Positions 3,083 to 25,512 of a stretch of 36,012 nt of DNA are shown here, in pieces. The DNA comes from Bacteroidota bacterium (lineage in GTDB: Bacteria; Bacteroidota; Bacteroidia; Bacteroidales; JABHKC01): NCBI GenBank assembly GCA_018692315.1, contig JABHKC010000228.1, positions 1 through 36,012 of the forward strand, read 5' to 3'. A program made the translations under genes and the position numbers. The notes under the pieces were generated by a model. That model was not told the DNA's origin and made no database searches. It was given only the letters and a program-made list of their open reading frames with translations. Every line of letters begins with the position of its first letter. The stretch's first letter is position 1.

Positions 3083-3178
3083 CTTTGTAAGCGTTCTAAG
3101 CTAATTAATTCATGAATTATTCAGGCTAAAAACTTGATAATTAGAATCCATTATTACAAAAAAAGTGTTTTTATAATT

Positions 3179-5104
3179 ATGCAAAATTACTTAACAATAT
3201 TGTTTTTTTTTATAGGATTTATTTGGGTAGTAATAGCCAGTAACAAAATTTCTCAATTATTTCTAAAAATAAAATTACCCTTAATTACAGGATTTTTATT
3301 GTCAGGTGTTATAGTTGGGCCCTTTCTTTTAAATTTAATTCCGCAAGAAGCAATTGACAATTTGAATTTTGTTAATGATTTTTCACTGGCTTTTATTGCA
3401 TTTGCTGCTGGTGCCGAATTATATTTAAAAGAGCTGAGAGGCAGTCTTAAAAGTATAGCATGGAATACTTTCGGCCAATTCGTGATTACTTTTATTATTG
3501 GTTTTATATCTATATTTTTTCTATCTCAGAATATCTCATTTATGCAAGATATGACAACGACAAGCAAAATTGCAGTTTCGCTTATAATAGCTACAATTTT
3601 TATTGCTCGCTCACCTTCATCTGCCATTGCAGTTATTAACGAAATGCGAGCAAAAGGTCCTTTTACAAAAACCGCAATTAGTGTAACAGTAGTAATAGAT
3701 ATATTAGTTATTGTGTTATTTGCACTAATTTTTTCTATTTCTAATACATTGATAACAGGAATTTCTTTTCGCTTTAGTTTCATTTTTATTATTATATTTG
3801 AATTAATTCTGTCTTTAAGTATAGGATTTATTCTAGGAAAGATTCTTATTATAATACTTTCCTTGCGTATTCTAGCTTATTTAAAATCAATATTAATATT
3901 ATTAGCAGGTTACGGAATTTACGTATTTTCAAGTTACGTACATTATTTAAGCGATGTTTATTTGCCTTTTGAAATTCATATCGAACCATTACTTGCTTGT
4001 CTGACAGGTAGTTTTCTAATAATAAATTATAGTAAACACCGAACTGAATTTCATAAATTATTACATGATATTGGTCCGATGATTTATGCTGTTTTTTTTA
4101 CTTTGGCCGGTGCAATGATATCATTGGATATCCTAATTAAGGTTTGGACAATTGCATTATTATTATTTGCAATACGCATTTTTGCATTGATTATAGGAAC
4201 ATACATTGGTACAACTTTGGCTGGTAATCCCAAATTATTTAAACGAATTGGTTGGGCTCCATATGTTACTCAGGCAGGCATAGCATTTGCAATTGTAACA
4301 GAAGTGGCTACAGAATTTTCAACATGGGGAAACCAATTTGCAACAATAGTAATTGCTGTAATTGTATTGAACCAAATAGTAGGACCACCATTATTCAAAT
4401 GGGCTATCAAAAAAGTTGGAGAAAGTCGTTTACATGCAAAATCATTAGAGCTTGATATTATTCATAAAGCGATAATATTTGGATTTGACGACCAGTCTTT
4501 AGCTTTAGCCAGAGAGCTGAAAAAACATAATTGGATTGTGAAAATAGCTTGTTTGAAAAAAAGAATTGAAATTTATGATGTTCCAGATATTGAAATTTGT
4601 TTTATTGATGATCTTTCAATTGAGACTTTTGATAAATTTAAAATAAAGAAATCTGAAGCAATAGTTTTAATGCTTTCCGATGAAGAAAATTATACAATTT
4701 GTGAATCAGTTTATGAAAACATTGGAACAAAAGAAATTATTGTAAGATTACATAATCGTGATTATTTTAATCGTTTCCATGAACTTGGAGCCATAGTTAT
4801 TGATCCTTCTACTGCTATGATAAATTTGTTGGATCATTTTGTTCGTTCGCCAATGGCAACTTCTTTGCTTCTTGGTATGGAGGATAATAAGGATACTTTA
4901 TCTCAGGAAGTGCTCGATAAGGATCTTCATGGTGTTTCATTACGAAATTTACGTCTTCCTTCAGATGTCTTAATTCTTTCTGTTAAGCGTAAAGGTCAAA
5001 TGATAATTTCTCATGGTTATACCAGGCTTCGTCTTGGAGATATTGTTACAATAGTTGGCTCACCCGAGAGCCTCGAAATTGTCAGACTACGATTTGAAAA
5101 ATAG
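3179..5104 (+). CDS. CPA2/Kef-type cation:proton antiporter with TrkA-like C-terminal domains
   Basis: About 641 residues. The N-terminal two thirds (to about residue 410) is a monovalent cation:proton antiporter-2 type membrane domain with some 11-13 hydrophobic helices; LPLITGFLLSGVIVGP near residue 33 and FAAGAELYLKEL near 90 are characteristic. A TrkA-N-like domain begins at about 430, and a TrkA-C-like domain (LHGVSLRNLRLPSDVLILSV...GDIVTIVGSPE) ends the protein. The usual GxGxxG dinucleotide loop reads GFDDQS at 435-440, so nucleotide binding may be altered or lost. The open frame extends upstream to a TTG at 3134, but the added residues are basic and non-membrane-like, so the ATG at 3179, immediately before the first helix, is preferred. 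Probable role is K+ or Na+ efflux coupled to protons; the transported ion cannot be read from the sequence. Confidence 0.85.
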   Translation: MQNYLTILFFFIGFIWVVIASNKISQLFLKIKLPLITGFLLSGVIVGPFLLNLIPQEAIDNLNFVNDFSLAFIAFAAGAELYLKELRGSLKSIAWNTFGQFVITFIIGFISIFFLSQNISFMQDMTTTSKIAVSLIIATIFIARSPSSAIAVINEMRAKGPFTKTAISVTVVIDILVIVLFALIFSISNTLITGISFRFSFIFIIIFELILSLSIGFILGKILIIILSLRILAYLKSILILLAGYGIYVFSSYVHYLSDVYLPFEIHIEPLLACLTGSFLIINYSKHRTEFHKLLHDIGPMIYAVFFTLAGAMISLDILIKVWTIALLLFAIRIFALIIGTYIGTTLAGNPKLFKRIGWAPYVTQAGIAFAIVTEVATEFSTWGNQFATIVIAVIVLNQIVGPPLFKWAIKKVGESRLHAKSLELDIIHKAIIFGFDDQSLALARELKKHNWIVKIACLKKRIEIYDVPDIEICFIDDLSIETFDKFKIKKSEAIVLMLSDEENYTICESVYENIGTKEIIVRLHNRDYFNRFHELGAIVIDPSTAMINLLDHFVRSPMATSLLLGMEDNKDTLSQEVLDKDLHGVSLRNLRLPSDVLILSVKRKGQMIISHGYTRLRLGDIVTIVGSPESLEIVRLRFEK

Positions 5105-10753: not shown

Positions 10754-10894
10754 TCATTTTTTGGTGTTGGTAGCGAATACGGCTATTGAGGCAGCAACCT
10801 GGGTGGCTTGTGTAGTGTAGGCGGCTTTGTCACCAGAACGGAACATGCCATCCAAGATACTGACTTCAAGGCCGTTGTTAAAGCAACTATTCAT
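10754..10894 (-). CDS. Putative 46-residue small protein or gene remnant, GC-rich
   Basis: An ATG at 10894-10892 opens a 46-codon frame to TGA at 10756-10754. The ATG overlaps the last codons and stop of the DUF1016 gene by 8 bp, and the stop lies 4 bp before the DUF6398 start, so the frame exactly fills the gap between two co-directional genes. By my count 66 of 141 bases are G or C (about 47%), far above the surrounding DNA, and it contains none of the A/T runs seen elsewhere. The product starts MNSCFNNGLEVSILDGMFRS and is Ala/Thr-rich with no Lys until its second half. I do not recognise it. It may be a real translationally coupled peptide or the end of a recently acquired, truncated gene. 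Confidence 0.4.
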   Translation of the reverse strand: MNSCFNNGLEVSILDGMFRSGDKAAYTTQATQVAASIAVFATNTKK

Positions 10895-12023
10895 TATTTA
10901 ATTCATCATTACTAAATTCTTTTTCAATATCCTCGATGCTTGGTAGTTCGGATTTCAGCTGATTTGGGATTGCCTTGCTAAATTCGTATTTGGCTATTCC
11001 TATTGGCTGTTTTAGTACGTCCAGTAAATATTCTGCTTCTATTTTGTCGTGTTTTTTGCATAATATCAGCCCAATTGTTGGGTTGTCATTTTCTGTTCTT
11101 AATGTTTTATCTATTGCAGAAATATATAACGCTAATTTTCCTGTATGTTCTGCCTCAAATTCTCTTGCTTTTAGTTCAATTACTACATAACATCTTAACT
11201 TTAAGTGATAGAAAAGCAAGTCAATATACCTGTCTTTTTCGGACAATTGTACTTTGTACTGTCTGCCGACAAAAGCAAATCCTGCCCCCAGTTCTAAGAG
11301 GAATTTGGTTATGTGCTTTGTCAATTGGTTTTCAATGTCTCTTTCGTCTGCTTCTTTTTTAACCGTTAAAATATCGAAAATATATGGGTCTTTTAATGTT
11401 TGATTTGCTAAATTCGACTGTGGTTTTGGTAATGTATTATTGAAATTTGAGATCGCTTTTCCTTGTCTTGAATACAAATTCGTTTCAATTTGTATTTCTA
11501 AAACTGACCTCGACCAACCGTTTATTATGGTTTCATTTATATAAAACAGTGCTTCTGAAATGTCTTTTATTTTTGTTATAATCAATATATTATGACCCCA
11601 CGGAATTTGTGCAACAACTTGTTGCACAAATTCAATTGAGTTAACTTTTTCTGGGAGTTTCTTTTGTGCAACAGATTGTTGCACTTTTTCAAATCGTTCA
11701 TTATAAAACAAATACCACTTTTTCATATAGAACAGGTTTCTACGTGAAAATCCTTTCATTTCAGGAAACTCAGATTGTAAGTCTTTTCCTAATTGTTCAA
11801 CAACAGCATCCCCCCAATTCTTAGTGGATTGTTTTTCGATAATATCTTTTCCTAAGTTCCAATAGAACTCTAACATTTCCGAATTGACAGACAAAGCTGC
11901 CTTAATTTGCAGCTTGTAAACTTTCTCCTTAATGGCTTTAAACCAAATTTTATAATCTTGATTTGAAGACAATTCTATTGACATTAAATATTTTTTATTG
12001 TTTAAAATTAATTGTTGTTTCAT
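10887..12023 (-). CDS. DUF1016 (YhcG-type) PD-(D/E)XK nuclease family protein
   Basis: About 378 residues from the ATG at 12023; a TTG at 12044 and an internal ATG at 11984 are alternative starts. The N-terminal DUF1016_N domain includes IKAALSVNSEMLEFYWNLGK, FPEMKGFSRRNLFYMKKWY and the IPWGHN motif. The C-terminal domain is a PD-(D/E)XK nuclease: FVGRQYKVQLSEKDRYIDLL (with the catalytic Asp) followed by CYVVIELKAREFE (the E-x-K). The family is widespread on mobile and defence islands, and some members have been linked to DNA repair or phage defence; its activity is poorly known. A TAATTTTG (-7-like) lies on the minus strand at 12049-12042, just upstream of the ATG, but lacks a matching TTG, so it may instead be read from the Gabija transcript. 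Family call is firm; role in the island is inference. Confidence 0.87.
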   Translation of the reverse strand: MKQQLILNNKKYLMSIELSSNQDYKIWFKAIKEKVYKLQIKAALSVNSEMLEFYWNLGKDIIEKQSTKNWGDAVVEQLGKDLQSEFPEMKGFSRRNLFYMKKWYLFYNERFEKVQQSVAQKKLPEKVNSIEFVQQVVAQIPWGHNILIITKIKDISEALFYINETIINGWSRSVLEIQIETNLYSRQGKAISNFNNTLPKPQSNLANQTLKDPYIFDILTVKKEADERDIENQLTKHITKFLLELGAGFAFVGRQYKVQLSEKDRYIDLLFYHLKLRCYVVIELKAREFEAEHTGKLALYISAIDKTLRTENDNPTIGLILCKKHDKIEAEYLLDVLKQPIGIAKYEFSKAIPNQLKSELPSIEDIEKEFSNDELNNE

Positions 12024-12055
12024 ATCAGATGTACTATTGAACAAAATTAAATCTA

Positions 12056-12176: not shown

Positions 12177-13883
12177 TTAATTAATTATATCTATAAACAT
12201 ACTTGGATAATAATTGTGTAATATTATCAGGTACTTTTTAGCTCTACTTACCGCAACATAAAACAACTTTCTTCCTTCTTCAATTCCTTCTTCTGTCAAA
12301 TCCTCATATACATAATCATTTCCATCTTTACCCAGATATTTCTGATGTGGTATTTTATGTTCATTCATTTCATTCAATATAACAATATCATATTCCAAGC
12401 CCTTTACCTTGTGTATTGTATTGTTTGTAATTCCGTTTAACCCTGATAATGTTTGCATATACTGACCAATGTTCCAGATGCTTTTCTCTCCATCTTTTAT
12501 CAATTCAATTATTTCTGTAAACGTAGAATGCCGTATTCCAAATAGCTTATCGAAAAGGCGACTAAAATCTTCAAGCCCTTGCGTTATTGGTTTTTCAATA
12601 TCGTTTTCAAGCGTGTAACTTATCAATTCATTTGTTTTATAGTAGCTTGCTTTGTCGGAAAATGATAAATCATTTTCAAGGTAGTGAAGTTCAATATTTC
12701 GCTTTACTTTTCTTAATGCTCGGCTATTTTGGTCATGATAATAGCCTGCCAATGATTTCAAAAGACTGAATGTAGAGTTGTTTGAAATGTATTTATGTGG
12801 TAAAGCTCCTAAACCAACAATATTATATTCATTTCTTAAAATTGTACTTACATTAAATGCGGAATACCAACTTGTTGATAATATTGATATTTCTTTAAGT
12901 TCTACTTTACATTTATCAACTAAATGCTCCATTACTTCTTTTACAATTTCTTCATAATTTGCCTTTTTTGTTTGTATAAATTTGACAGGCAAATCAAGTT
13001 CGTTATTTTCAGAAGAACTGTTATCTATTACAGGATGCTCGTCAAATAGTTTTGTGTAAGTACTTACAATCTTTGCAGAAGAACGATACGCTTTGTCTAA
13101 CTCAACAGGTTCTGCACTAAAATCGACCTTTGCTTTTCCAAAAGAATTTTCAATAGCTCCTGCGAAGGAAAATATCTGTTGTCGCTTATCGCCAACCATA
13201 AAAAAGGTACATGTTCCATTGTTATGTGTCTTTTTTAGAATTTCATATTGAAAAAGGTTTGTATCTTGAAATTCATCTACCAAAATTTCATAGAAGGTAC
13301 TTGCTAATGATTTTAAAATAAACTCATTTTCTGAAATGATTTTGTGTGAGCGAAATAGTATTTCGTTGAAATCAATTACTTTAATACTTTCTTGATATTC
13401 TGAATATCTTCTCGCTACTTCAATTATACTAATTTCATGATTCCAATCTACTGACATGTCAAGATTTCCTTCTATATCTTTCTTGATTTTGTCAATTTCA
13501 TCAAATTTATTTTGTCCAAAGTTTTTCTCTAACTCTATATCTAGGTTGTTCTCAAAAAAGACTTCCTTTTCTTCATAGCTAATAATACGAGGTTTATACC
13601 ACTTATAAATCCAACCATAAGGGCGCAAAATAAACTCTAAACAAAAGCGATGAATTGTACCTATGAAGACATTGTTTTGATTTATTAATCGTGATGATAT
13701 TTCATCGGCTGCTGCATTGGTGTATGTTATCAATGCAATAGTTTTAAATTTTGGCAAATCTTCAAGTTTATACATTGCTCTTGCAACAAGGGTTCTTGTT
13801 TTACCGGAACCTGGTGATGCTGTAACAAGAGTATTGCCCTTAATTTCAAATACTGCTTTTTCTTGTAATTTATTTAAAATCAT
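12177..13883 (-). CDS. gajB: Gabija system helicase GajB (UvrD-like SF1A)
   Basis: A 568-residue UvrD/PcrA-like helicase. Motif I is ASPGSGKT at 22-29, Ia includes TYTNAAADEI at 53-62, motif II is VDEFQDT at 202-208, and motif III is GDKRQQIFSFAGA at 231-243. Then come AYRSS near 265, motif V HKVKGLEYDIVIL at 491-503 and motif VI FYVAVSRAKK at 541-550. All helicase/ATPase motifs are intact. Its start lies 2 bp after the gajA stop, the arrangement of Gabija anti-phage systems, where GajB acts with the GajA nuclease to degrade or nick DNA when nucleotide pools fall during infection. It is somewhat longer than the Bacillus GajB that I recall (about 494 residues). The operon context makes a housekeeping UvrD assignment unlikely. 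Confidence 0.9.
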   Translation of the reverse strand: MILNKLQEKAVFEIKGNTLVTASPGSGKTRTLVARAMYKLEDLPKFKTIALITYTNAAADEISSRLINQNNVFIGTIHRFCLEFILRPYGWIYKWYKPRIISYEEKEVFFENNLDIELEKNFGQNKFDEIDKIKKDIEGNLDMSVDWNHEISIIEVARRYSEYQESIKVIDFNEILFRSHKIISENEFILKSLASTFYEILVDEFQDTNLFQYEILKKTHNNGTCTFFMVGDKRQQIFSFAGAIENSFGKAKVDFSAEPVELDKAYRSSAKIVSTYTKLFDEHPVIDNSSSENNELDLPVKFIQTKKANYEEIVKEVMEHLVDKCKVELKEISILSTSWYSAFNVSTILRNEYNIVGLGALPHKYISNNSTFSLLKSLAGYYHDQNSRALRKVKRNIELHYLENDLSFSDKASYYKTNELISYTLENDIEKPITQGLEDFSRLFDKLFGIRHSTFTEIIELIKDGEKSIWNIGQYMQTLSGLNGITNNTIHKVKGLEYDIVILNEMNEHKIPHQKYLGKDGNDYVYEDLTEEGIEEGRKLFYVAVSRAKKYLIILHNYYPSMFIDIIN

Positions 13884-13885
13884 TA

Positions 13886-15652
13886 TTATACTGTTATATT
13901 GTTATGCTTGAAAATAAATTCAATTGCATCTTGCAAATAACTTGGTATCTCAAAATCTTTATCAATTTGTAATGATAATTCTTGTGCAAAGCGACCTTTT
14001 TTTATTGTTCCATCAATTCGTGAAATAAGTTCTTCTGCCCAATTGTCTGGTTTTGTTGTAACTGTTTCAACTAAATTTTCATAAGATTGTGTATGATTTA
14101 AATTCTCAAAACAAGTTTTCAGGGTTGCAGTATTTTTCTCATAATCTGGAAATAAATCAATTTCTAACGTCTCATTGCCACTAAAAACTTCTATTCTATT
14201 ATCTATTTCATAGCTTTTGGCATTTTCAACCGCTGTTGTATATTCTTCCGTTTCTTTTATTTCTTTTTTATCTCCGTCAATTATAGCACAAACTATTATT
14301 TCAAGTTTGTCTTTTTGAAATAGTTCAAGAAAAGGATCAAAGTAACGACTATGGATTGGTATTACAGATATATTATATTCAGTTAAATCAATTCCGAATT
14401 TTTGTTTTGCTATTGCAGGAATTATAAATTGCTCTGCAACACCTTCAACTAAAATTACTGACGATGCAAAGAAAAGCTCTGAACGAGTTGCATCTAAATA
14501 TCGTTTTAATAACAATTGGTCTCTATTGACTTTTTTATCTTCGCTTTTTTCAACAAATGGGGAAAATGATTTCACCTTTTTTTCAGGAGTGTTAAAAATA
14601 ATATTTAAGTTCTTAAAATTACAATCACTTGCTATGTGAGTAGAATGAGAACTCATAAAAACTTGTGTATTTGATGTATTACTTAGATTTGAAAAAAGTA
14701 ATTTTTGTAATTGAGGATGTAAATGAGCTTCGGGTTCTTCAATGAGCAAAATATTTATTTCATTATCGTCTTGCTCATTAACAAGTCTTGAAAGAAATAA
14801 ACTCAAATATAATAAGTTTTTCTGCCCTAAACCTAACAAATACATTGGTAAGGTTTGTCCTTCTCGTGGATTATAAAACAATTTCAATTGGTCCCATATT
14901 TCTGTATCATAATCCGTTAAAACACCAATTGAAATTGGGAATGAGAAATGCTTACCTGCAATTTCTTTATTTTTTGATTTTATTGTTTCTGCAATTTTGG
15001 GTATAAACTCTAAATCATTTATTTTCTTTGAGGATTTAGTTAAAATTGATTTTACTTTGTCTAATTCACTTTCAGTATCTTCCCTTGATTGACAATATAA
15101 ACTCAACATTGATTTAGAATTCCCAAAAAGTTCCGTATTTATATTTCTAAAATCGGAAATAAAAAATAGATTTATCCCTTCGAGTTCTTTTATTGAAATT
15201 TCATTATTTTGTTTAATAATAGTGTTGAAGTCCGTAGAATTTCCGCTTCCAAAGAGTTTCCATTGAAAATCCTTTACTTCTGCTTTTTCGTATGTTTTTG
15301 TGGTTGACGCAAATTTTGTTCTATGTGCGTAAACATATGTTACCCTGACTGTTTTATCTGAACTTTTTATTGTATGAAGATTAGGAAAGCTTGATAAATT
15401 TTCACCTTTTAGTTCAATACTAATCAGAATATTAGTATTAAAATCTATTTTTTTAAATCCGTGAATATCTTTTTCTTGTAATCTTCTTGAATTATAGGAC
15501 AAATTTTTATCAAAAACTAACCTAATTGCCCAAAATAAATTACTTTTTCCGATATTGTTTTCACCAATAATCGTTTGAAATTCCTTTGTGAAATTAATTG
15601 TAAAATCTTCGAAATTTCTGAAATTCTTTATTGTTATTTTATCAAGATGCAT
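13886..15652 (-). CDS. gajA: Gabija system ATPase-nuclease GajA (OLD family, TOPRIM)
   Basis: About 588 residues from the ATG at 15652 (MHLDKITIKNFRNF, the usual opening of the family). An in-frame ATG at 15688 would add 12 basic residues; the inner start is preferred and has a purine-rich AGAGAAG upstream. The ABC-type ATPase has Walker A GENNIGKSN at 30-38, a signature-like LGLGQKN at 273-279, Walker B ILLIEEPEAHLHP at 301-313 and the H-loop H336 in MSSHSTH. The C-terminal TOPRIM nuclease has E403 in LVEG and D459/D461 in IIDGD. Length and domain order match GajA (about 578 residues in Bacillus). Known GajA is a sequence-specific DNA-nicking endonuclease inhibited by nucleotides and forms a large complex with GajB. 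All visible catalytic residues are present, so the system is probably functional. Confidence 0.9.
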   Translation of the reverse strand: MHLDKITIKNFRNFEDFTINFTKEFQTIIGENNIGKSNLFWAIRLVFDKNLSYNSRRLQEKDIHGFKKIDFNTNILISIELKGENLSSFPNLHTIKSSDKTVRVTYVYAHRTKFASTTKTYEKAEVKDFQWKLFGSGNSTDFNTIIKQNNEISIKELEGINLFFISDFRNINTELFGNSKSMLSLYCQSREDTESELDKVKSILTKSSKKINDLEFIPKIAETIKSKNKEIAGKHFSFPISIGVLTDYDTEIWDQLKLFYNPREGQTLPMYLLGLGQKNLLYLSLFLSRLVNEQDDNEINILLIEEPEAHLHPQLQKLLFSNLSNTSNTQVFMSSHSTHIASDCNFKNLNIIFNTPEKKVKSFSPFVEKSEDKKVNRDQLLLKRYLDATRSELFFASSVILVEGVAEQFIIPAIAKQKFGIDLTEYNISVIPIHSRYFDPFLELFQKDKLEIIVCAIIDGDKKEIKETEEYTTAVENAKSYEIDNRIEVFSGNETLEIDLFPDYEKNTATLKTCFENLNHTQSYENLVETVTTKPDNWAEELISRIDGTIKKGRFAQELSLQIDKDFEIPSYLQDAIEFIFKHNNITV

Positions 15653-15710
15653 AGTTCTTCTCTTTTTCTTAAATTGGGCACAACTCATTTATATATCTAC
15701 CTTTTTCTGA

Positions 15711-15922: not shown

Positions 15923-16930
15923 CTACCTTCCAGTCAAATTTTTTGGAATTCTACCATTATTAATTGTTTCTGACCTAAGTTTGCGTCCAACAATTCTTTC
16001 AACCATTGTTCCAATTTCTAATACTTTGTCAATGTCAAGTCCTGTATCGATTCCCATCTCGTCCATCATTACAACCATATCTTCAGTATTAACTAATCCA
16101 ACAGCAGCAGGATCTTTATAATAATATTTCCCTGTTCCTGACACAGGTGTATTATCGACAAAATTTGCAGGCTGACCACCAAGTCCACCAAAACAACTTT
16201 CGAAGTTTGTTACTCCTGCTTGAAGAGCCGCAAGAACATTAGCATTTCCCCAGCCACGTGTTACATGAAAATGAGCAATCTGTTTATGTGGATTGCTTAC
16301 TTCATTTAATAACATATCGAAATATTTATAAACTCTGTCGGGCGAGGCTGAACCATCATGGTCGGCATGTTCTACATCATTTGCTCCAATATCAAACCAA
16401 CGTTTAGTAAATTCAATGGCTTTTTCCAATTTAGTTGGTCCTTCAATCGGGCATCCCCAAATTGTGCTTACAGTTCCGTTTACTGTAATGCCGGCATCGT
16501 GGCATTTTGGAATATATTTTTCACACATTTTCCAATAATCTTCAAGCGAAAGACCAGAATTTGTTTTGTGATGCGACTCACTGGTTGAAACCATAACTAA
16601 GATTCTATCTGGTCCGTAGCCATCAAGTTTTGCTTGAATAGCTCTTTCGATAGCTCTTTCTCGAATCGTTATAGCTGTAAGTTTTACATCATCAATTAGA
16701 TGTTTCACTTTTTTACTTTTTCTAATTTTCTTAAACAGATCATCAGCGTCTTTAAATTGTGGCATTCCTTTAGGATTACCAAAATTTGTTACTTCAAGAT
16801 GTTTGAATCCGGCTAATATGGATTGTTCTAAAACCCATAATTTTGCCTCAGTTGAAATATAACTTTCTTCGTGTTGAAAACCGTCTCTGACAGTTATATC
16901 GCCTAAGGTAACTTTTTTTGGATAGTTCAT
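15923..16930 (-). CDS. HMG-CoA lyase-like DRE-TIM aldolase with altered active-site loop
   Basis: A 335-residue HMGL-like TIM barrel. Retained landmarks are VRDGFQHE (R15, D16) for metal and substrate, VSTIWGCPIEG at 154-164 and the metal pair H220-x-H222 in AHFHVTRGWGNA. In HMG-CoA lyase the mobile loop reads GLGGCP, with the catalytic Cys (Cys266 in the human enzyme). Here it is GLGGQP with Q253 at that position, and about 18 extra residues (257-275) precede VGLVNTEDM, where the metal-binding Asn appears to be Leu. The nearest Cys is C246, seven residues upstream. It ends the cluster containing the MCC-beta and methylglutaconyl-CoA hydratase genes, which predicts HMG-CoA cleavage to acetoacetate and acetyl-CoA. 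The changed loop may instead mean another acyl-CoA substrate. Family is firm, exact reaction is not. Confidence 0.75.
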   Translation of the reverse strand: MNYPKKVTLGDITVRDGFQHEESYISTEAKLWVLEQSILAGFKHLEVTNFGNPKGMPQFKDADDLFKKIRKSKKVKHLIDDVKLTAITIRERAIERAIQAKLDGYGPDRILVMVSTSESHHKTNSGLSLEDYWKMCEKYIPKCHDAGITVNGTVSTIWGCPIEGPTKLEKAIEFTKRWFDIGANDVEHADHDGSASPDRVYKYFDMLLNEVSNPHKQIAHFHVTRGWGNANVLAALQAGVTNFESCFGGLGGQPANFVDNTPVSGTGKYYYKDPAAVGLVNTEDMVVMMDEMGIDTGLDIDKVLEIGTMVERIVGRKLRSETINNGRIPKNLTGR

Positions 16931-16968
16931 AACTTTCTATTTTTTAGTTTATAATGTTGTAGTTTAAT

Positions 16969-17625
16969 TTATATTTTCATTTCAGGAATTTCTCCTTCGA
17001 CTATTAATTTCCCATCAGTTTTTTCAATAATTTCTTCAACAGAAACTCCGGGAGCTCTTTCAATTAATTTGAAACCTTCTGGTGTTACATCTAAGACTGC
17101 TATGTCTGTAACTATTTTTTTTACACAATTTACTCCTGTTAAAGGTAAAGTGCATTTTTTCAGTAGTTTCGAATTTCCTTTTCTATCGGTATGTGTTGTA
17201 GCTACAATAATATTTTTTGCAGAAGCCACTAAATCCATTGCACCTCCCATTCCTTTAATTAGTTTTCCAGGAATCTTCCAACTTGCAATGTCGCCATTTT
17301 CGGCAACTTCGAAAGCTCCGAGAACTGTAAGATCTATATGTCCGCCGCGAATCATTCCGAAACTTAGCGATGAGTCGAAAAACGACGCTCCGGGCATTGT
17401 CGTAACTGTTTGTTTACCTGCATTTATCAGGTCTGCATCTATTTCGTCTTTGCTTGGAAACGGACCAATTCCAAGCAATCCGTTTTCCGATTGCAATATT
17501 ACTTCCATCCCCTCAGGAATAAAATTTGCAACTAAAGTTGGTATTCCTATTCCAAGATTTACGTAATATCCGTCTTCTAATTCCATTGCAATTCTTTTTG
17601 CAATTCCATTTTTATCTAAAGCCAT
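16969..17625 (-). CDS. 3-oxoacid CoA-transferase subunit B
   Basis: A 218-residue beta subunit of a family I CoA-transferase. GIGIPTLVANFIPEGM at 25-40 is followed by the catalytic Glu, E47, in LQSENGLLGIGP; then GASFFDSSLSFGMIRGGHID and KGMGGAMDLVASAK, both diagnostic. With the A subunit encoded upstream it would move CoA between acetoacetyl-CoA and succinate, acetate or another acid, linking acetoacetate from the neighbouring lyase to central metabolism. A 228 bp non-coding spacer separates it from subunit A, unusual because these two genes normally abut. A TAGTTTTG on the minus strand at 17677-17670 could be an internal -7 box, but has no clear TTG partner. Acid specificity is not determined. 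Confidence 0.9.
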   Translation of the reverse strand: MALDKNGIAKRIAMELEDGYYVNLGIGIPTLVANFIPEGMEVILQSENGLLGIGPFPSKDEIDADLINAGKQTVTTMPGASFFDSSLSFGMIRGGHIDLTVLGAFEVAENGDIASWKIPGKLIKGMGGAMDLVASAKNIIVATTHTDRKGNSKLLKKCTLPLTGVNCVKKIVTDIAVLDVTPEGFKLIERAPGVSVEEIIEKTDGKLIVEGEIPEMKI

Positions 17626-17853
17626 ATTTATATATTTTTTATTTAAATATTTTGTATTGATTATTTTTTCAAAACTAATTCGTAATTTACTTAGGATTTG
17701 TAAATGAATAAACTATCCATCTGTACTTGTTCTTTTGTTCATTTTCTTCGTTGTAAAAGTATTAAATAATCTGTGGCTATTTGCAACTTTAACGCCTTGA
17801 AAATAAACAAAATATCTTCGTACATTTTGAATACTTTATTCATTTATAAACCC

Positions 17854-18546
17854 TTAGTCTCTTGTAGTGGCAAATTCGATTCTTTTTTCATAATCAATGC
17901 CTTTAAAAATTCGTTGAACAAATACACCGGGGGTATGAATATAATTTGGATCCAATTCGCCGAAGGGTACTAATTCTTCTACTTCGGCAATTGTAATTTT
18001 CCCTGCCATAGCCATCATATTATTGAAATTGTTGGCTGTTGCCCTATAAATCAAATTTCCATGTGTATCTCCTTTCCAAGCCTTGACGATTGCAAAATCG
18101 GCTGTGAGTGCTGATTCTAATAGGTGCATTTTACCATTAAATTCTTTAACTTCTTTTCCTTCGGCTACTTCGGTTCCATAGCCTGCCGGAACATAAAATG
18201 CCGGAATTCCTACTCCTCCTGCTCGCACTCTTTCGGCCAGAGAACCTTGCGGTATGAGATCTACTTCTAATTCGCCGCTTAATAGCTGCCGCTCAAATTC
18301 TTTGTTTTCTCCTACATATGAAGCAATCATCTTTTTTATTTGATGCTTTCTCAATAATTTCCCTAAACCACAATCATCTATACCTGCATTATTTGATATA
18401 CAGGTTAAACCTGAAACACCATTTCCTACAAGGGCATTTATTGAGTTTTCGGGAATACCACACAAACCAAAGCCGCCGAGCATAATTGTCATATTATCAA
18501 CTATGCCTGAAATTGCCTGCTGTGCATTTTTTACTACTTTTTTCAT
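17854..18546 (-). CDS. 3-oxoacid CoA-transferase subunit A
   Basis: A 230-residue alpha subunit of a family I CoA-transferase. Hallmarks are [18 protein letters not shown] at 22-39, [32 protein letters not shown] with [14 protein letters not shown], and the C-terminal [19 protein letters not shown]. These are closest to succinyl-CoA:3-ketoacid (ScoA/SCOT-type) transferases rather than glutaconate or propionate types. It would partner the B subunit at 16969-17625. It follows the BKACE-like gene by 51 bp in the same direction. Its place in the cluster suits activation of acetoacetate or disposal of acetoacetate made by HMG-CoA or beta-keto acid cleavage. Confidence 0.9.
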
Positions 18547-18597
18547 ATTCTATCATTTAATTTAAAAAGTGATTCTAATTTTTAATTTAATATTCTT

Positions 18598-19509
18598 TCA
18601 TTTTAAATATCCTAACAAGTGTTTTGCTTGAAATGGACTCGCAATTGGTCGTCCGTTTTCTATTGCTCTATCTACACAAAAATTTACAAATTCTACATTT
18701 GAAATTTTCTCATCGCTATCGTGCAAACCTACTCTAACATGGAAGCCATTTCTTATCGCAATCTCGGCAGTATTTCTCCAATCAACACCATCGCAAACTA
18801 TAATAACTTCCTTAACAGCTTCAGGCATAAGTTGTCTGTATTTTACGAAATTGTCATAATTTGCTTCAATTCCTTCACCTCCTGTAAAATGAAAAATAGC
18901 AACAAGCGGATCGGCAACAAAGGCTTTTGATAAGATCAATTGTAAATTGTAAACATTGTCGTGAGAATTTATCAATGGAAACAAGCGTACTCCACGTTTA
19001 TAGGCTATGTTAAATCGTTCGATTTCTACTTCTATTGATCGTGAGTTTATTTTAGTTTCTTCAAATTGAACATCTCCTACAATTTCTAACATTGAGCCAA
19101 AATATGGATTAAACAATGATTTTTTGAATAATTCTAAAGAATCTTCAGCAAATTCTATGCACCAGTCAAAGCAAATATCCGGATTCGATTCACGAATTAC
19201 TTTAGCTATTTCAGTAAAATTTTTTGTTGAATAGTCCATATAAACAGATTTGTGGGCAGGGTATTTCGAGATAGGATGAATATGAATTACTGAAGCTCCA
19301 TACCGAATTAGCTTTTTCGACTCCATTATTAATTCTTCCCTGCTTGTCGGGACAAAGTTCCCTCTATTGTTTTTATCCCAACCATCGTTTCCTACTTGGG
19401 CTACCATAATAATGAGTGGTTTATTTTTGTTTTGTAAAACATTCTGTGCTTTTGTGGCAGGCAAATGAATCAGTGAAAACAATAGTACAATAAATAAAAC
19501 CTTATACAT
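18598..19509 (-). CDS. BKACE/DUF849-like beta-keto acid cleavage protein with signal peptide
   Basis: A 303-residue divergent member of the beta-keto acid cleavage (BKACE, DUF849) family. The barrel starts at about 31 (PLIIMVAQVGNDG). The Zn-binding HxH is H76-I-H78 in ASVIHIHPIS. The C-terminal HVRVGLHDS at 257-265 aligns with HVRVGLED of Kce, whose R226, Zn ligand E230 and D231 would be R259, H263 and D264; the Glu is therefore replaced by His. The first 21 residues (MYKVLFIVLLFSLIHLPATKA) look like a signal peptide with cleavage before QN, unlike cytosolic BKACE enzymes. No alternative start before the first strand removes it. Canonical BKACEs use acetyl-CoA and a beta-keto acid to give acetoacetate and an acyl-CoA, which does not fit an exported location, so the role here is open. 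Confidence 0.7.
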   Translation of the reverse strand: MYKVLFIVLLFSLIHLPATKAQNVLQNKNKPLIIMVAQVGNDGWDKNNRGNFVPTSREELIMESKKLIRYGASVIHIHPISKYPAHKSVYMDYSTKNFTEIAKVIRESNPDICFDWCIEFAEDSLELFKKSLFNPYFGSMLEIVGDVQFEETKINSRSIEVEIERFNIAYKRGVRLFPLINSHDNVYNLQLILSKAFVADPLVAIFHFTGGEGIEANYDNFVKYRQLMPEAVKEVIIVCDGVDWRNTAEIAIRNGFHVRVGLHDSDEKISNVEFVNFCVDRAIENGRPIASPFQAKHLLGYLK

Positions 19510-19553
19510 AATCTATTTTAACATTATTTGATTTGAAAGATAGGCTAAACTGT

Positions 19554-20279
19554 CTATTTATCATCGTTTGGTATTGAAAATTGCCAGGCACAAAACCACT
19601 CTTTGGGGTGCTTATCGGGCGGACAGGCAATACATTCAGTAACTATTCTGCTATCAACTGCTTCTGCAAAAGTTCTATATTCTACCATTCCTCCCGATTT
19701 GCACGGATAATCGTCGAGATTTTTTCTTTTTCGTGCATTCTGAACACGACAATCGTTCATTTGAAAAACGAAACTGTTAGGGGTTTCGTTTACAAATGAT
19801 TGCTTGTTTATAAAAGCATAAAGTCTATATTCTAAAGCTTTTTTAAGTCCGGCAAGTCCAGAATTTTCTCCCAGATTCAAAATGCGTTTTATCGACCATG
19901 CTTCGAATGGCGAGAATGCCGACCAGGCAGAATCGTTGCAGCGTTTTGCATCGAACATATCACGCGAAAATTCAACAGATTGAAACCAAACACCATCGTT
20001 TGCTAACCAATTTATTGCTAAATTTTCTTTTAGTTTTTCTTGCTTTTCAATTGGCAAATCAATCAGAGGTTTTGGTAAATCGTCTTCCATTTCAAAATCT
20101 AAGGTTTTCGCCAATCTTTTCATTTGAATATTAAAGCTTTTAGTATAAGATTCATTCAAAATTTCAAAGGCTTTTTCTCTACCAAACTGATGTTGCACTT
20201 CAGCAAACCAAATTGCATGATGCATCATTGTTCGATGAAAAAAATCGATTATCAATTTTGCATTTTCGTTTTTATTCAT
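19554..20279 (-). CDS. DUF6125 / L-2-amino-thiazoline-4-carboxylate hydrolase-like protein, Cys-rich
   Basis: A 241-residue cytosolic protein. The N-terminal half is helical (MMHHAIWFAEVQHQFGREKA at 18-37). The C-terminal half carries a cysteine set: C177 (NDCRVQNARKRK), C193 (YPCKSGG), C216 and C219 (ECIACPPD), and C230 (WFCAWQF). The ending pattern CxxCPPD...HP..WFC matches my memory of proteins labelled DUF6125 and related to the ATC hydrolase family (PF14196); neither gives a secure reaction. The Cys pattern could bind a metal or iron-sulfur cluster. It sits 14 bp after the transcarboxylase-type gene and 44 bp before the BKACE-like gene, so it is part of the same operon and may act on the same acyl-CoA or thiol chemistry. 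Function is not assigned. Confidence 0.55.
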   Translation of the reverse strand: MNKNENAKLIIDFFHRTMMHHAIWFAEVQHQFGREKAFEILNESYTKSFNIQMKRLAKTLDFEMEDDLPKPLIDLPIEKQEKLKENLAINWLANDGVWFQSVEFSRDMFDAKRCNDSAWSAFSPFEAWSIKRILNLGENSGLAGLKKALEYRLYAFINKQSFVNETPNSFVFQMNDCRVQNARKRKNLDDYPCKSGGMVEYRTFAEAVDSRIVTECIACPPDKHPKEWFCAWQFSIPNDDK

Positions 20280-20293
20280 CCAATTTCGATTTT

Positions 20294-22450
20294 TTATTCT
20301 AATTCAACTAATACCTCACCGGCTTCAACCATTTCGCCAATTTCGAAAAATACTTTTTTAACTTTTCCGTCTTTAGGCGACTCTATGTTATTTTCCATTT
20401 TCATAGATTCAAGAATCATTACAACATCGCCGGCTTTAACTTCATTGCCTTCTTCTGCAAGAATTTTAAAAACTTTTCCTGGCATAGGAGTAGAAATATT
20501 ATTATCAGCACTTTCCGATGAATCTTTTTTCTGAGTAATTTTTATTTCTGTGTTTAGAATATCTTTTCGTTTTACATAATAAGTGTTATCGTTGATTATT
20601 ACAGTTGGTTCGCCACTTTCGTCTATTGAAATTGTAGCGATAAATGATTCATTATCAACAATAAATTCAACTTCATTTCCATCGAAATTTTCTAAGGAAC
20701 TTTTATAAGTTTTATCCAAATATTGAACTTCAAATAAGTTGTCCTTAATTTTAAGAATCTTTAGATTTATATTTTTATTATTGATAAGCATATTAATGTT
20801 CATCAAATCTCGCCAATAACCAATAGAATTCCACACACTTTCAGGATTTACGGAAAACTGCTCTTTCGCCAGATTTTTAGATGTAAATAAGAAAAAAGCA
20901 ATGAGTGGTACATGTTCTGCAACTTTTGCCTGATTGTTTGCTTTTGGTTTCGATTGAGCTGATGAACCTACAGCAGTTGTATTTGCTTTTGCATTTTTCA
21001 TTTTTTCAACTTCTTTCTCGAAATTTTTCTTTGCTGCTCCCGATTTATAGTCTCTATATTGGTTTTCGTGCATTGCAAATTCGAATAATTCTTCATCGTC
21101 TTCGCCCGTGTCCCAATTGTTGTCGTGCATTTCTTTTCTAAACTTGTCAAGTTGGTTAGGGTAAGCATCTTGCGGAACACCGGTATAAAATTCTTTGTTT
21201 TGTTTTTTTGCTAATTCTATGATTTCCGGAGCTAGAGGTCCAGGCAATTTTCCTGATTTCCCAAGAATCATACTCCACGAATTTTCGTCAATCATGGAAT
21301 ATCGCTCTTTTCCTTGAACCATAAGCATTACATTCATTAAGGCAATATTTTTTACATACTGACTGAATGGAGTAACAAGTGGGGGATAGCCCAATTTTGG
21401 CCAAATATATGCAACCTCGTCGAACAGACGGACTAACAAATCGTCCTGACTGAGTTCTGCTTCGCCTTTCGATTTTAATGTAAGGTTTATTCCATCGTGA
21501 ACTCCTTTAAGGTCAGCCATTAAACTTCCCATCATTCCGCCAGGCAAACCAGATGAAACCATCAAAGACGACATGTAGCGATTTTGTTGATTAATAAACA
21601 ATCCAAGAAAATCGTCCATAAAACTTTGAGTTAAAGCACGTGCTTCCATGTAGGCATTCATATTTATTTCTGGGACATCAAATCCTGCATCTTTCAGCAT
21701 TGCTTGAATAGTAATAACATCAGGATGAACCATTCCCCACGAAAGTGGTTCCATTGCCACATCAACATAATCTACTCCGGCTTTTGCAACTTCAAGCATC
21801 GATGCTATTGAAAATCCGGGACCTGTGTGCCCATGATATTGAATAATTATGTTTGGATATTTGTCTTTAATAGCTTTTGTAAGCCGACCTAACATAACCG
21901 GACGACCTATTCCTGCCATATCTTTCAAACAAATTTCGTCGGCTCCATATTCAACAACTTTATCGACTAATTCCATGTAATACTCTACCGTATGAATTTC
22001 AGAGTATGTGATACAAAGTGTTGCCTGAGAAATCATTCCGGCTTCTTTGGCATATTTTATTGAAAGTTCCAGATTCCTGTGATCGTTTAGTCCGCAGAAC
22101 GAGCGAGCAATATTTGTTCCTTGAGCATTTTTTACTTTATACATTAATTGCCTTACATCGGCAGGTACAGGAAACATTCTGATTCCGTTCAGTGCTCTTT
22201 CGAGCATATGTGTTTTAATTCCAACCTCGTTGAAAGGTCTTGTCCACTCTCTCACTGCGGTATTTGGATTTTCTCCATATAACAGATTTACTTGTTCGAA
22301 TGCACCTCCATTTGTTTCGACACGATCAAAGCATCCCATATCGATTATTACCGGAGCTATTTTTTTCAATTGATCAATTCTTGGCACATATTTCCCCGAC
22401 GATTGCCACATATCTCTGTAAACAAGGCTAAATTTTATTTGCTTTTTCAT
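20294..22450 (-). CDS. Carboxyltransferase (5S/OadA-like) - BT - biotin carrier fusion; putative transcarboxylase subunit
   Basis: A 718-residue biotin protein. Residues 1-490 are a pyruvate/oxaloacetate carboxyltransferase domain (PycB, OadA, transcarboxylase 5S type): R12-D13 in YRDMWQSS, the probable carbamylated Lys K176 in LKDMAG, metal ligands H206-x-H208 in YHGHTG, and YPPLVTPFSQ at 355-364. A linker leads to residues 510-640 (from EHVPLIAFFLF, through VWNSIGYWRDLMN to YYVKRKD), which resemble the BT region that precedes the carrier in MCC alpha and PCC alpha and docks the beta subunit. Residues 650-718 are a biotinyl domain with K684 in ESMKMEN. The biotin carboxylase domain of MCC alpha is absent. 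With the MCC-beta-like protein encoded at 23905 this could move CO2 between oxaloacetate and an enoyl-CoA without ATP. Domains are seen; the reaction is inferred. Confidence 0.8.
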   Translation of the reverse strand: MKKQIKFSLVYRDMWQSSGKYVPRIDQLKKIAPVIIDMGCFDRVETNGGAFEQVNLLYGENPNTAVREWTRPFNEVGIKTHMLERALNGIRMFPVPADVRQLMYKVKNAQGTNIARSFCGLNDHRNLELSIKYAKEAGMISQATLCITYSEIHTVEYYMELVDKVVEYGADEICLKDMAGIGRPVMLGRLTKAIKDKYPNIIIQYHGHTGPGFSIASMLEVAKAGVDYVDVAMEPLSWGMVHPDVITIQAMLKDAGFDVPEINMNAYMEARALTQSFMDDFLGLFINQQNRYMSSLMVSSGLPGGMMGSLMADLKGVHDGINLTLKSKGEAELSQDDLLVRLFDEVAYIWPKLGYPPLVTPFSQYVKNIALMNVMLMVQGKERYSMIDENSWSMILGKSGKLPGPLAPEIIELAKKQNKEFYTGVPQDAYPNQLDKFRKEMHDNNWDTGEDDEELFEFAMHENQYRDYKSGAAKKNFEKEVEKMKNAKANTTAVGSSAQSKPKANNQAKVAEHVPLIAFFLFTSKNLAKEQFSVNPESVWNSIGYWRDLMNINMLINNKNINLKILKIKDNLFEVQYLDKTYKSSLENFDGNEVEFIVDNESFIATISIDESGEPTVIINDNTYYVKRKDILNTEIKITQKKDSSESADNNISTPMPGKVFKILAEEGNEVKAGDVVMILESMKMENNIESPKDGKVKKVFFEIGEMVEAGEVLVELE

Positions 22451-22478
22451 ATTATTTTGTAATTTTATTTTGATTTAA

Positions 22479-23267
22479 TTATTTTACCCAATTTGGCTTT
22501 CTTTTTTCAAGAAATGATGACATCCCTTCTTGTCCCTCTTTTGAGGCTCTCAAATCTGCAATCAATCTTGCACTATAATCTATGGAATCGTCAAAAGATA
22601 ATATATTAGAAATATCATAAATAAGTTCTTTACAAGAAGCCATTGCTTCAGGCCCGCTTGTAAACAAAAGTTTGATAGTTTTGTTTACTTCTTCTTCTAA
22701 TTCGTCAACTGACAAAGATTTGTTCACTAATCTATTTTTTTCTGCTTCTTTCCCAAGAAAAACTTTCCCTGTGAGCATAAGTTCACGTGATCCATATTCT
22801 CCAATTCTTTTATATATGTATGGCGAAATTGTTGCCGGAGCGATACCGAGTTTTACTTCGCTAAATGCAAATTTGGTTTCATTGTTACAGAAAGTAAAAT
22901 CGCAAGCGGCAAGTAGCCCGTTTGCACCTCCAATTGCTGCACCTTGCACTACTGCAATAGTTGGTTTTTTACATGTATAAATAATATTAAAACATTTAGC
23001 TAAATGCAATCCGTCCTGATAGTTTTCTTCGTAGCCGAATTCTGCTATTCCTTTCATATAGTTCAAATCGGCTCCGGCACAAAATGATTTTCCTTTTCCA
23101 CGTAGAACAACCACTCTTACATCTTCCATATTGTTTACTTTCTGATAGCAGTCGATAATTTCAGAAATCATTTCTGCATTCATTGCATTTCTTTTTTCGG
23201 GACGGTTGAGCCAAATAGTTCCGATATTTTCATTTAATTGAAATTCAATATTTTCGTAATTATTCAT
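22479..23267 (-). CDS. Enoyl-CoA hydratase family, methylglutaconyl-CoA hydratase type
   Basis: A 262-residue crotonase-fold protein. The CoA-binding and oxyanion segments are GKSFCAGADLNYM and VVQGAAIGGANGLLAACDF; the active-site Glu is in FSEVKLGIAPATISPYI. The position of the first crotonase catalytic Glu is Gly (GGANGLL), as I recall for bacterial LiuC-type methylglutaconyl-CoA hydratases, and the IAPATISPY segment is typical of that group. The expected reaction is hydration of 3-methylglutaconyl-CoA to HMG-CoA in leucine breakdown, or the reverse. It lies 28 bp before the biotin fusion gene, which it would follow in the pathway. The MCC-beta gene in the same cluster strengthens the specificity call. 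Other short enoyl-CoA substrates cannot be excluded. Confidence 0.82.
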   Translation of the reverse strand: MNNYENIEFQLNENIGTIWLNRPEKRNAMNAEMISEIIDCYQKVNNMEDVRVVVLRGKGKSFCAGADLNYMKGIAEFGYEENYQDGLHLAKCFNIIYTCKKPTIAVVQGAAIGGANGLLAACDFTFCNNETKFAFSEVKLGIAPATISPYIYKRIGEYGSRELMLTGKVFLGKEAEKNRLVNKSLSVDELEEEVNKTIKLLFTSGPEAMASCKELIYDISNILSFDDSIDYSARLIADLRASKEGQEGMSSFLEKRKPNWVK

Positions 23268-23333
23268 TTTCGATGGTTTAATTAGTTTTAGTAATATTTC
23301 AACAATTTCATTGGCATGAGAAAAGTATAAATT

Positions 23334-23885
23334 TTAGTCTATTTTGAACACTCCTAATTTATACAATTCATAAATAATTTTTGCTTCATGCAATGCGTCA
23401 TCTAATGCTCTGTGGGCTTCTACGTAAGGCTCTCCAATTAGAAATTTCCAGGCTTCTTCTACAGAGGGCCATTTTGCACCATATTTCCCAGGTAGGTTTA
23501 AAATTGGGGTTGCAACAATCATTGGGCAAGGCAGCTCTTTAACTGTGATGCCACGAGAATTTAAAAAACCGAAATCGAATTTTTTATTATATGCTGTAAC
23601 TCCCAATTCAAATTCTTGCAAAATGGTTTTGATTTTTTCCTTTTCGGATTCAAAAGTGGGAGCACTTAACAGCTCCTGATAATTCAAATCTGAATTTTTG
23701 AAAATCCAACCAAATGGATATCGAGTATGTCTATCATCTAATCCTTTTTCGCATATTAAAGAGTTATATTTTTCCTCTGCTTTTCCTGATTCTAAATCTA
23801 AACTTACAATTCCAATTTCAACGATTAAACCTCCTTGATTTAAAAATCCGGTGGTTTCAATATCAATTATCCCTATTTCTTTCAT
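23334..23885 (-). CDS. DEDDh 3'-5' exonuclease
   Basis: A 183-residue exonuclease of the DnaQ/RNase T fold. Exo I is IDIETTG with D8 and E10, Exo II is AYNKKFDFGFL with D104, and Exo III is HRALDDALHEA with H158 and D163. All four acidic residues and the His are present, so it should be an active DNA or RNA 3'-5' exonuclease. It is small and stand-alone, without polymerase or other domains, and is probably cytosolic. It is placed 19 bp after the MCC-beta-type gene and 67 bp before the hydratase gene, inside an otherwise metabolic operon, with which it has no evident functional link. The nucleic-acid substrate is unknown. Confidence 0.85.
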   Translation of the reverse strand: MKEIGIIDIETTGFLNQGGLIVEIGIVSLDLESGKAEEKYNSLICEKGLDDRHTRYPFGWIFKNSDLNYQELLSAPTFESEKEKIKTILQEFELGVTAYNKKFDFGFLNSRGITVKELPCPMIVATPILNLPGKYGAKWPSVEEAWKFLIGEPYVEAHRALDDALHEAKIIYELYKLGVFKID

Positions 23886-23904
23886 CTAATTGCAAAATTC
23901 AAAT

Positions 23905-25512
23905 TTACATTCTAAAAACGCCATTTTTCTGGTCGGGATACTTTTTGTTTAGCGACAAAGCAATTCCCATTGCCAGAACTTTTCTTGTATCAAGCGGGTC
24001 AAGAATTCCATCGTCCCACAAGCGCGATGTGCTGTAATATGCCGAGCCTTCTTTATCGTATTTGGCAATTATGCTATTTCGCAGATTATCAATTTCTTCT
24101 TGTGGCATTTCTTTTCCTTTTAGTTTGTACTGGTCTTGTTTTACAGTAATCAGTACATTGGCAGCCTGAGCTCCTCCCATTACAGATATTTTTGCATTTG
24201 GCCACATGAAAAGTAAACGAGGATCGTAAGCTCTACCAGCCATACCATAATTTCCTGCACCGAAAGAACCTCCGAACAAAACAGTGAATTTTGGTACATT
24301 GGCATTTGCTACAGCATGTACTAATTTTGCCCCATCTTTTGCAATTCCTCTTCTTTCAAAATCTTTTCCAACAATAAATCCGGTAATATTTTGCAGAAAT
24401 ACAAGTGGAATTTTTCTTGATGTACATATTTCAATAAAATGAGCGCCTTTTAGTGCTGATTCGGGAAACAAAACACCATTGTTTGCAATTATTCCAACAG
24501 GATAGCCCATAATTCTTGCAAATCCTGTAACTATGGTAGGTGCATATTTTTCTTTAAATTCATGAAAAAGGCTACCGTCAACAATCCGCATTATTATTTC
24601 CTTCGAATCGACTGCTTTTTTAAAATCGACCGGTGCAATTCCATAAAGTTCTTCGGGATCGTAAAGTGGTGGTACTGAAGGATAAATATCGAATGGCTGC
24701 TTTTCTCGACTTTCAATATTTTCGAAAATGTTTCTGCAAATTTGTAGGGCGTGAGTGTCGTTTTCAGCAAAATGGTCGGCTACACCCGAAATAGATGTAT
24801 GAACCTCAGCACCTCCAAGTTCTTCGGCAGTAACTTCCTCGCCGGTTGCAGCTTTTACTAATGGAGGCCCTCCAAGAAAAATTGTTCCTTGTTGTTTTAC
24901 AATAATTGTTTCGTCGCTCATAGCTGGAACGTATGCTCCGCCAGCTGTACATGAACCGAGAACTACAGCAATTTGTGGAATTCCTTCTGCCGAAAGGCGA
25001 GCTTGATTATAGAAAAATCTGCCGAAATGGTTTTTATCAGGAAAAACTAAATCTTGTTCGGGCAGAAAGGCTCCTCCAGAATCTACAAGATAAACGCAAG
25101 GCAAGTTATTTTCCATTGCAATTTCTTGAGCCCGCAAGTGTTTTCTAATGGTATATTGCATATATGTTCCACCTTTTACGGTGGCATCGTTAGCAATAAT
25201 TACTGTTTCTTTTCCATGAATTACGCCAATGCCGGTTACGATTCCTGCCGAAGGAAAACCGTTGTCATATTGTCCGTATGAAGCTAATGCAGATAATTCT
25301 AAGAATGGGGTGTTTGCATCAATTAGTAGATCAATTCTTTCTCTGGCCAAAAGTTTTCCACGCTCTTTGTGCTTTTTTACAAATTTTTCAGGTCCACCTT
25401 TTTTAACGTCAGACAAAATTTCTTTATACTTGCTTAACAATTCTAAAAATTTGTCTCTGTTTTTGGTAAACTCAACCGATTTGGTATTGATTTTTGATTC
25501 TAATCTATACAT
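23905..25512 (-). CDS. Acyl-CoA carboxylase beta subunit, 3-methylcrotonyl-CoA type
   Basis: A 535-residue carboxyltransferase (12S/MCC-beta). The first crotonase-like half carries [14 protein letters not shown], then [36 protein letters not shown] and [12 protein letters not shown]. The second half carries [34 protein letters not shown] and [13 protein letters not shown]. The [20 protein letters not shown] and [12 protein letters not shown] segments are those of MCC beta rather than PCC or acetyl-CoA carboxylase. It would transfer carboxylate from carboxybiotin to 3-methylcrotonyl-CoA. The normal partner MCC alpha is not in the cluster; the only biotin protein is the 5S-BT-carrier fusion. 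It is the first gene of the run of nine on the minus strand, preceded by a 531 bp divergent region. The start ATG at 25512 is unambiguous. Confidence 0.9.

Follow-up and report, generated by a model that had tools for sequence, protein, structure and literature searches.

A divergent BKACE-fold protein with a predicted signal peptide and a histidine at the third metal-ligand position, encoded in a putative leucine cluster

The closest described systems to the protein analyzed here are proteins of the DUF849 (BKACE) fold. The metal ligands of Kce are numbered H46, H48 and E230, and roles are assigned to its residues E230, E14, S82 and T106. BsfD, an enzyme of flavophos synthesis, keeps His48, His50 and Glu247 and uses acetyl-CoA through Tyr251 and Lys254; these two residues and Arg226 guide and hold CoA (PMC12871164). 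The BsfD structure is probably PDB 9zsc. The cis-epoxysuccinate hydrolase CESH[D] (PDB 5zmu/5zmy) carries out a one-step epoxide hydrolysis and retains only two of the three Kce ligands (PMC6429283), and two further DUF849 groups, G6 and G7 (Bastard et al., 2014), are called 'not BKACE', with decarboxylation reported for G6 (PMC4922564). Loss of CoA use and loss of the third ligand are therefore already known in this fold. In the limited set of literature searched, parts of it in excerpt, neither a DUF849 member with His at the third-ligand position nor an exported member was found.

We analyzed a window of 36,012 nucleotides from a Bacteroidota bacterium, meaning the whole stretch of DNA under study, which contains the following gene:

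18598–19509, minus strand: BKACE/DUF849-fold protein of 303 aa (profile, alignments, structure comparison)

The reading frame is open along its whole length on the minus strand; on the plus strand, the interval is interrupted by many stops. Its coding score is 0.29 bits per codon in frame and falls to –0.44 and –0.38 when the frame is shifted, and this coding-like usage speaks against advanced decay of the gene. Scans for promoters and terminators gave no excess over shuffled sequences. The single Pfam match of the protein is PF05853 BKACE (66.1 bits, cut-off 24.8), running from residue 31 to 300 and covering profile positions 1–273 of 274, that is, the whole barrel. The Kce equivalog model NF052387 gave 46.6 bits and its curated cut-off of 382 was not reached. 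PF05853 matches occurred in 63 of 393 same-order genomes; the best match scored 65.5 bits here and 200–364 bits in 60 others, and was a fragment in the two that remain besides these and the protein's own genome, in which there was no second PF05853 match.

An AlphaFold2 model built from 17 rows (mean pLDDT 70.4, pTM 0.76; confidence below 50 in residues 86–92, 138–144, 146–156 and 178–186) was compared with known structures. The best 28 Foldseek rows and the best 15 VIA rows were all DUF849-fold proteins, with VIA Z scores of 22.3–24.5 over 253–266 residues among these best rows; ObcA came next at 20.4–20.8, and other TIM barrels reached at most 16.3. Kce matched across the whole barrel (Z 24.1, 254 residues, rmsd 3.0) at a sequence identity of 21–24%, and CESH[D] gave a Z of 22.4–22.7 over 254 residues. 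The 303-aa protein is thus a true but very divergent member of the DUF849/BKACE fold.

The residues around the putative metal site were placed as follows:

19276–19284, minus strand: H76-I77-H78, the first two putative metal ligands, at Kce H46 and H48 (alignments)
19270–19272, minus strand: I80, replacing the Arg of Kce R50 (alignment; Arg in 78 of 78 relatives)
19153–19167, minus strand: D115 to E119 in strand 3, replacing Kce Q80 to G84 (alignments)
18718–18735, minus strand: R259 to D264, with H263 at the third-ligand position, Kce E230 (alignments)

Residues were counted in a panel of relatives in which 87 ORFs matched, 85 loci held one of sufficient length and 78 rows were distinct. The HxH motif is conserved (in the relatives, the H48 equivalent in all 78 and the H46 equivalent in 75), and the earlier note's placing of these two zinc-ligand positions at H76 and H78 was borne out by the alignments. 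So was its proposal that the third ligand, Glu, has been exchanged for His. H263 lies opposite Kce E230 in four alignments (phmmer against 2y7d, MAFFT, the set from viral contigs, and an HMM built without the protein), none of which places a Glu at this position of the 303-aa protein; the relatives have Glu there in 78 of 78 rows of the MAFFT panel and in 16 of 16 viral-contig sequences. Two residues past the HxH motif, Ile80 occupies a position that is Arg in every one of the 78 relatives. R259 (Kce R226) and D264 (Kce D231) are retained, as in Kce. In strand 3, two new acidic residues, D115 and E119, flank C117, which stands at Kce S82; Ser265 stands at Kce Asn232, and D42 lies opposite Kce Glu14. 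Equivalents of Kce T106, E141, E143 and Y145 vary with the alignment chosen: the MAFFT panel sets E162, E164 and F166 on E141, E143 and Y145, and other alignments differ. Alignment of strands 4–5 is uncertain, so some BKACE residues may remain. Separately, in three DUF849 proteins encoded by two Pandoraea genomes, the first metal His is replaced by Ala and the Glu is retained.

A further departure from the family lies in the segment that follows D264:

18700–18717, minus strand: shortened loop S265–S270, where BsfD contacts CoA (alignment)

This loop has 6 residues, compared with 11–13 in all 78 relatives and 12 in Kce. BsfD Tyr251 and Lys254 were assigned to it by motif alignment from BsfD Glu247. 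Judged by these alignments, the loss from the active site goes beyond what the earlier note had described, since it takes in the Arg now replaced by Ile80 and the cut CoA-contact loop. A three-His site that binds Zn is plausible, and the residue and loop losses, like the leader described below, point away from acetyl-CoA chemistry. The proposal that the protein acts without CoA hence gained support from the six-residue loop; the idea that such an activity would be new for the family did not stand, CESH[D] being a precedent. CESH[D] has likewise given up the ligand at the E230 position, and it catalyzes a plain hydrolysis. Its signature differs: CESH[D] has Gly at that position and Glu14 as a ligand, where the 303-aa protein has His263 and Asp42, and this signature is absent here. 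BsfD offers a precedent for chemistry diverging from BKACE within the DUF849 fold; its CoA loop and third-ligand Glu are lacking here. G6 and G7 are alike in being DUF849 members described as lying outside BKACE. Kce, finally, differs from the protein in E230, R50, the loop and the leader.

The leader occupies the start of the gene:

19447–19509, minus strand: predicted Sec signal peptide, residues 1–21 (hydropathy and start-codon layout; cleavage by eye)

It consists of MYK, a hydrophobic core and PATKA followed by QN, that is, n-, h- and c-regions with a type I cleavage site, and putative cleavage, judged by eye, falls after A21 (PATKA/QN). Its best 10-residue hydropathy mean is 3.32; six proteins of the window with a membrane-type N terminus range from 2.26 to 3.68, and the maxima of the eight other cluster genes, from –0.46 to 2.10, make these look cytosolic. 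An in-frame TAG lies two codons 5' of the ATG, codons 10 and 16, both TTG, are the only alternative starts 5' of the barrel, no GTG occurs between codon 1 and the barrel, and the next ATG is codon 35, within strand 1. The initial 30 codons score 0.18 in frame versus –0.43 and –0.17 in the shifted frames. The signal peptide that the earlier note had read in the first 21 residues is thus supported, for this one protein, by hydropathy, start-codon layout and a coding-like leader, and Sec-dependent export of the 303-aa protein to the periplasm is predicted.

None of the 78 relatives has a comparable leader. Where a panel sequence has a Met, it lies, with one exception, no more than 15 residues from the start of the domain, and the five sequences that may extend by at least 15 residues lack a similar hydrophobic core (one reaches 2.12, which is its first barrel strand). 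Homologues that begin at the barrel with no signal, which the earlier note had named as evidence against its reading, are therefore just what the relatives are, and export is not a family trait. The layout of start codons argues that the leader is nonetheless genuine here.

We also searched for closer relatives. With the whole protein, matches were found in 18 of 393 genomes of the order, in 3 of 395 of the class and in 1 of 395 of the phylum, its own genome counted each time and all other matches being 23–33% identical; these sets are partly overlapping draws and not the entire phylum. Two families, each searched in its single genome, gave no match (0/1 each). Patterns of eight residues run over genome contigs and viral contigs yielded no confirmed relative. 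A search for the His motif returned 42 and 7 stretches, and HMMs recognized no BKACE among them (lowest E value 0.073, for a single ORF). The pattern fixes Gly, His and Arg near the site, such that relatives varying there would escape it. The plasmid search gave one match, from Acetoanaerobium, at 25.5% identity. Across the genome, viral-contig and plasmid searches, the nearest relative is at most ~33% identical. In a tree for which 58 of 95 rows were retained after thinning, the protein joins no group and sits on its own branch of 3.7–3.8 changes per column, a length that makes its placement unsure. The same tree gives good support (100/100) to a same-order DUF849 group outside Kce.

The earlier note had suggested checking whether homologues share both the signal peptide and the His; none does. 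A subfamily with a common leader and His was accordingly rejected, since no relative found in the sets searched has either. As leader and His are absent from all relatives found, no conservation backs a function, and together with the lack of a BKACE in related leucine loci this makes the protein an orphan and not a subfamily.

The gene lies among these neighbors:

15923–25512, minus strand: putative leucine-catabolic cluster around the gene (gene families)
19554–20279, minus strand: DUF6125 gene, upstream neighbor across a 44-base gap (profile)
16969–18546, minus strand: 3-oxoacid CoA-transferase subunits A (17854–18546) and B (16969–17625), downstream neighbors (profiles)

Besides these and the 303-aa BKACE-fold gene, the cluster comprises a methylcrotonyl-CoA carboxylase-type carboxyltransferase, an RNase T-like gene, a methylglutaconyl-CoA hydratase-type gene, a 5S-biotin fusion and an HMG-CoA lyase-like gene; taken together, these families suggest leucine catabolism. 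Orthologous loci were taken as stretches around the 5S-biotin fusion from 18 genomes, several of which end at contig ends, and a match to the 303-aa protein (E 1e-4) was found in none of the 18. The conserved cluster therefore seems to have received the gene as a private addition. Clusters of relatives hold a second HMG-CoA lyase homologue, at times adjoining DUF6125, and the window has one only. That the gene has replaced this second homologue was rejected, the genome carrying it on another contig (48% identity). DUF6125 itself recurs near the leucine cluster at 69–74% identity in 4 of the 18 loci, often with a second HMG-CoA lyase-like gene.

The reading that we favor, tentatively and with slightly less than even confidence, is an exported (beta/alpha)8 metalloprotein of the DUF849 fold that has left BKACE chemistry and works as a CoA-independent enzyme on a small acid. 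The leader would direct the protein through Sec into the periplasm, where a divalent metal would be bound by H76, H78 and probably H263, with D42, D115 or E119 possibly near. CoA is not expected in the periplasm; with the CoA loop cut and the Arg lost as well, no acetyl-CoA-dependent retro-Claisen reaction would be expected. More likely, the metal would activate water, or a carbonyl in a small organic acid, and the reaction would be a hydrolysis or carbon–carbon cleavage that needs no CoA. D264, D115 or E119 would serve as acid/base, and the protein would act like a cis-epoxysuccinate hydrolase without being one. The position of the gene may hint at a substrate linked to the use of branched-chain keto acids. 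That this is the first DUF849 metalloenzyme that is exported, works without CoA and has a three-His metal site, derived from a cytosolic CoA-dependent fold and set in a leucine cluster, is rather doubtful. If it does bind metal and is active outside the cytosol, the fold would have lost both cofactor and compartment, which would make a testable case of a CoA-dependent retro-Claisen enzyme changing into something else; the weight of this is limited while it is known from one protein in one genome.

The main rival to an exported metal enzyme is a decaying or non-catalytic copy, either a once canonical BKACE that is degenerating or what is now a periplasmic binder of a ligand or metal. Its orphan status, very long branch and loss of residues present in 78 of 78 relatives fit this account, which we nevertheless consider unlikely: the 303-codon frame is intact with coding-like usage, the HxH motif persists along with the equivalents of R226 and D231, and the change from Glu to His supplies another possible metal ligand. 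It is improbable that the exported protein retains a CoA-free cleavage or decarboxylation of beta-keto acids, such as acetoacetate-like acids connected with the neighboring HMG-CoA lyase and CoA-transferase genes. Although the gene lies directly 5' of the CoA-transferase genes and decarboxylation is reported for group G6 (PMC4922564), acetoacetate should arise and be consumed in the cytosol, and a BKACE occurs in 0 of the 18 orthologous loci, so the leucine pathway needs none.

Two further accounts would keep the protein in the cytosol or in BKACE chemistry. Were the start mis-set, translation would begin at TTG16 and the 'signal' would be an untranslated leader; the cytosolic look of the eight other cluster genes and the lack of such a leader in relatives agree with this, but the coding-like initial 30 codons, the textbook n-, h- and c-regions and codon 1 as the sole ATG 5' of the barrel leave it quite improbable. 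An ordinary acetyl-CoA-dependent BKACE tolerating His as third ligand is the most improbable of all: membership in PF05853 and the retained D231 and R226 equivalents are set against a cut CoA loop, a lost Arg, the leader and a Kce equivalog score far below its cut-off.

Other features of the window concern its carboxylase and defense genes. The leucine-type carboxylase genes (20294–25512, minus strand) comprise the carboxyltransferase and the 5S-biotin fusion and lack a biotin carboxylase, which tblastn detected neither in the window nor in the 18 related loci. The only biotin carboxylase of the genome is on another contig, with an mmdA-like gene and a small gene matching the 5S-biotin fusion at its biotin-carrier end. 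Going by this gene content, the leucine-type carboxylase is possibly a methylcrotonyl-CoA transcarboxylase, with oxaloacetate or a similar compound as donor; no description of such an enzyme was found in the literature searched, some of it in excerpt. An RNase T-like exonuclease gene (23334–23885) lies between carboxyltransferase and hydratase, and in one relative's locus (2738–3301, 60% identity) it has the same place. Lastly, a Gabija-type defense pair (12177–15688, minus strand) consists of an OLD/TOPRIM ATPase (GajA, 336 bits) and a UvrD-like helicase (GajB, 277 bits), and is adjoined by a DUF1016/YhcG nuclease gene (10887–12044; PDC-S02 model, 496 bits).
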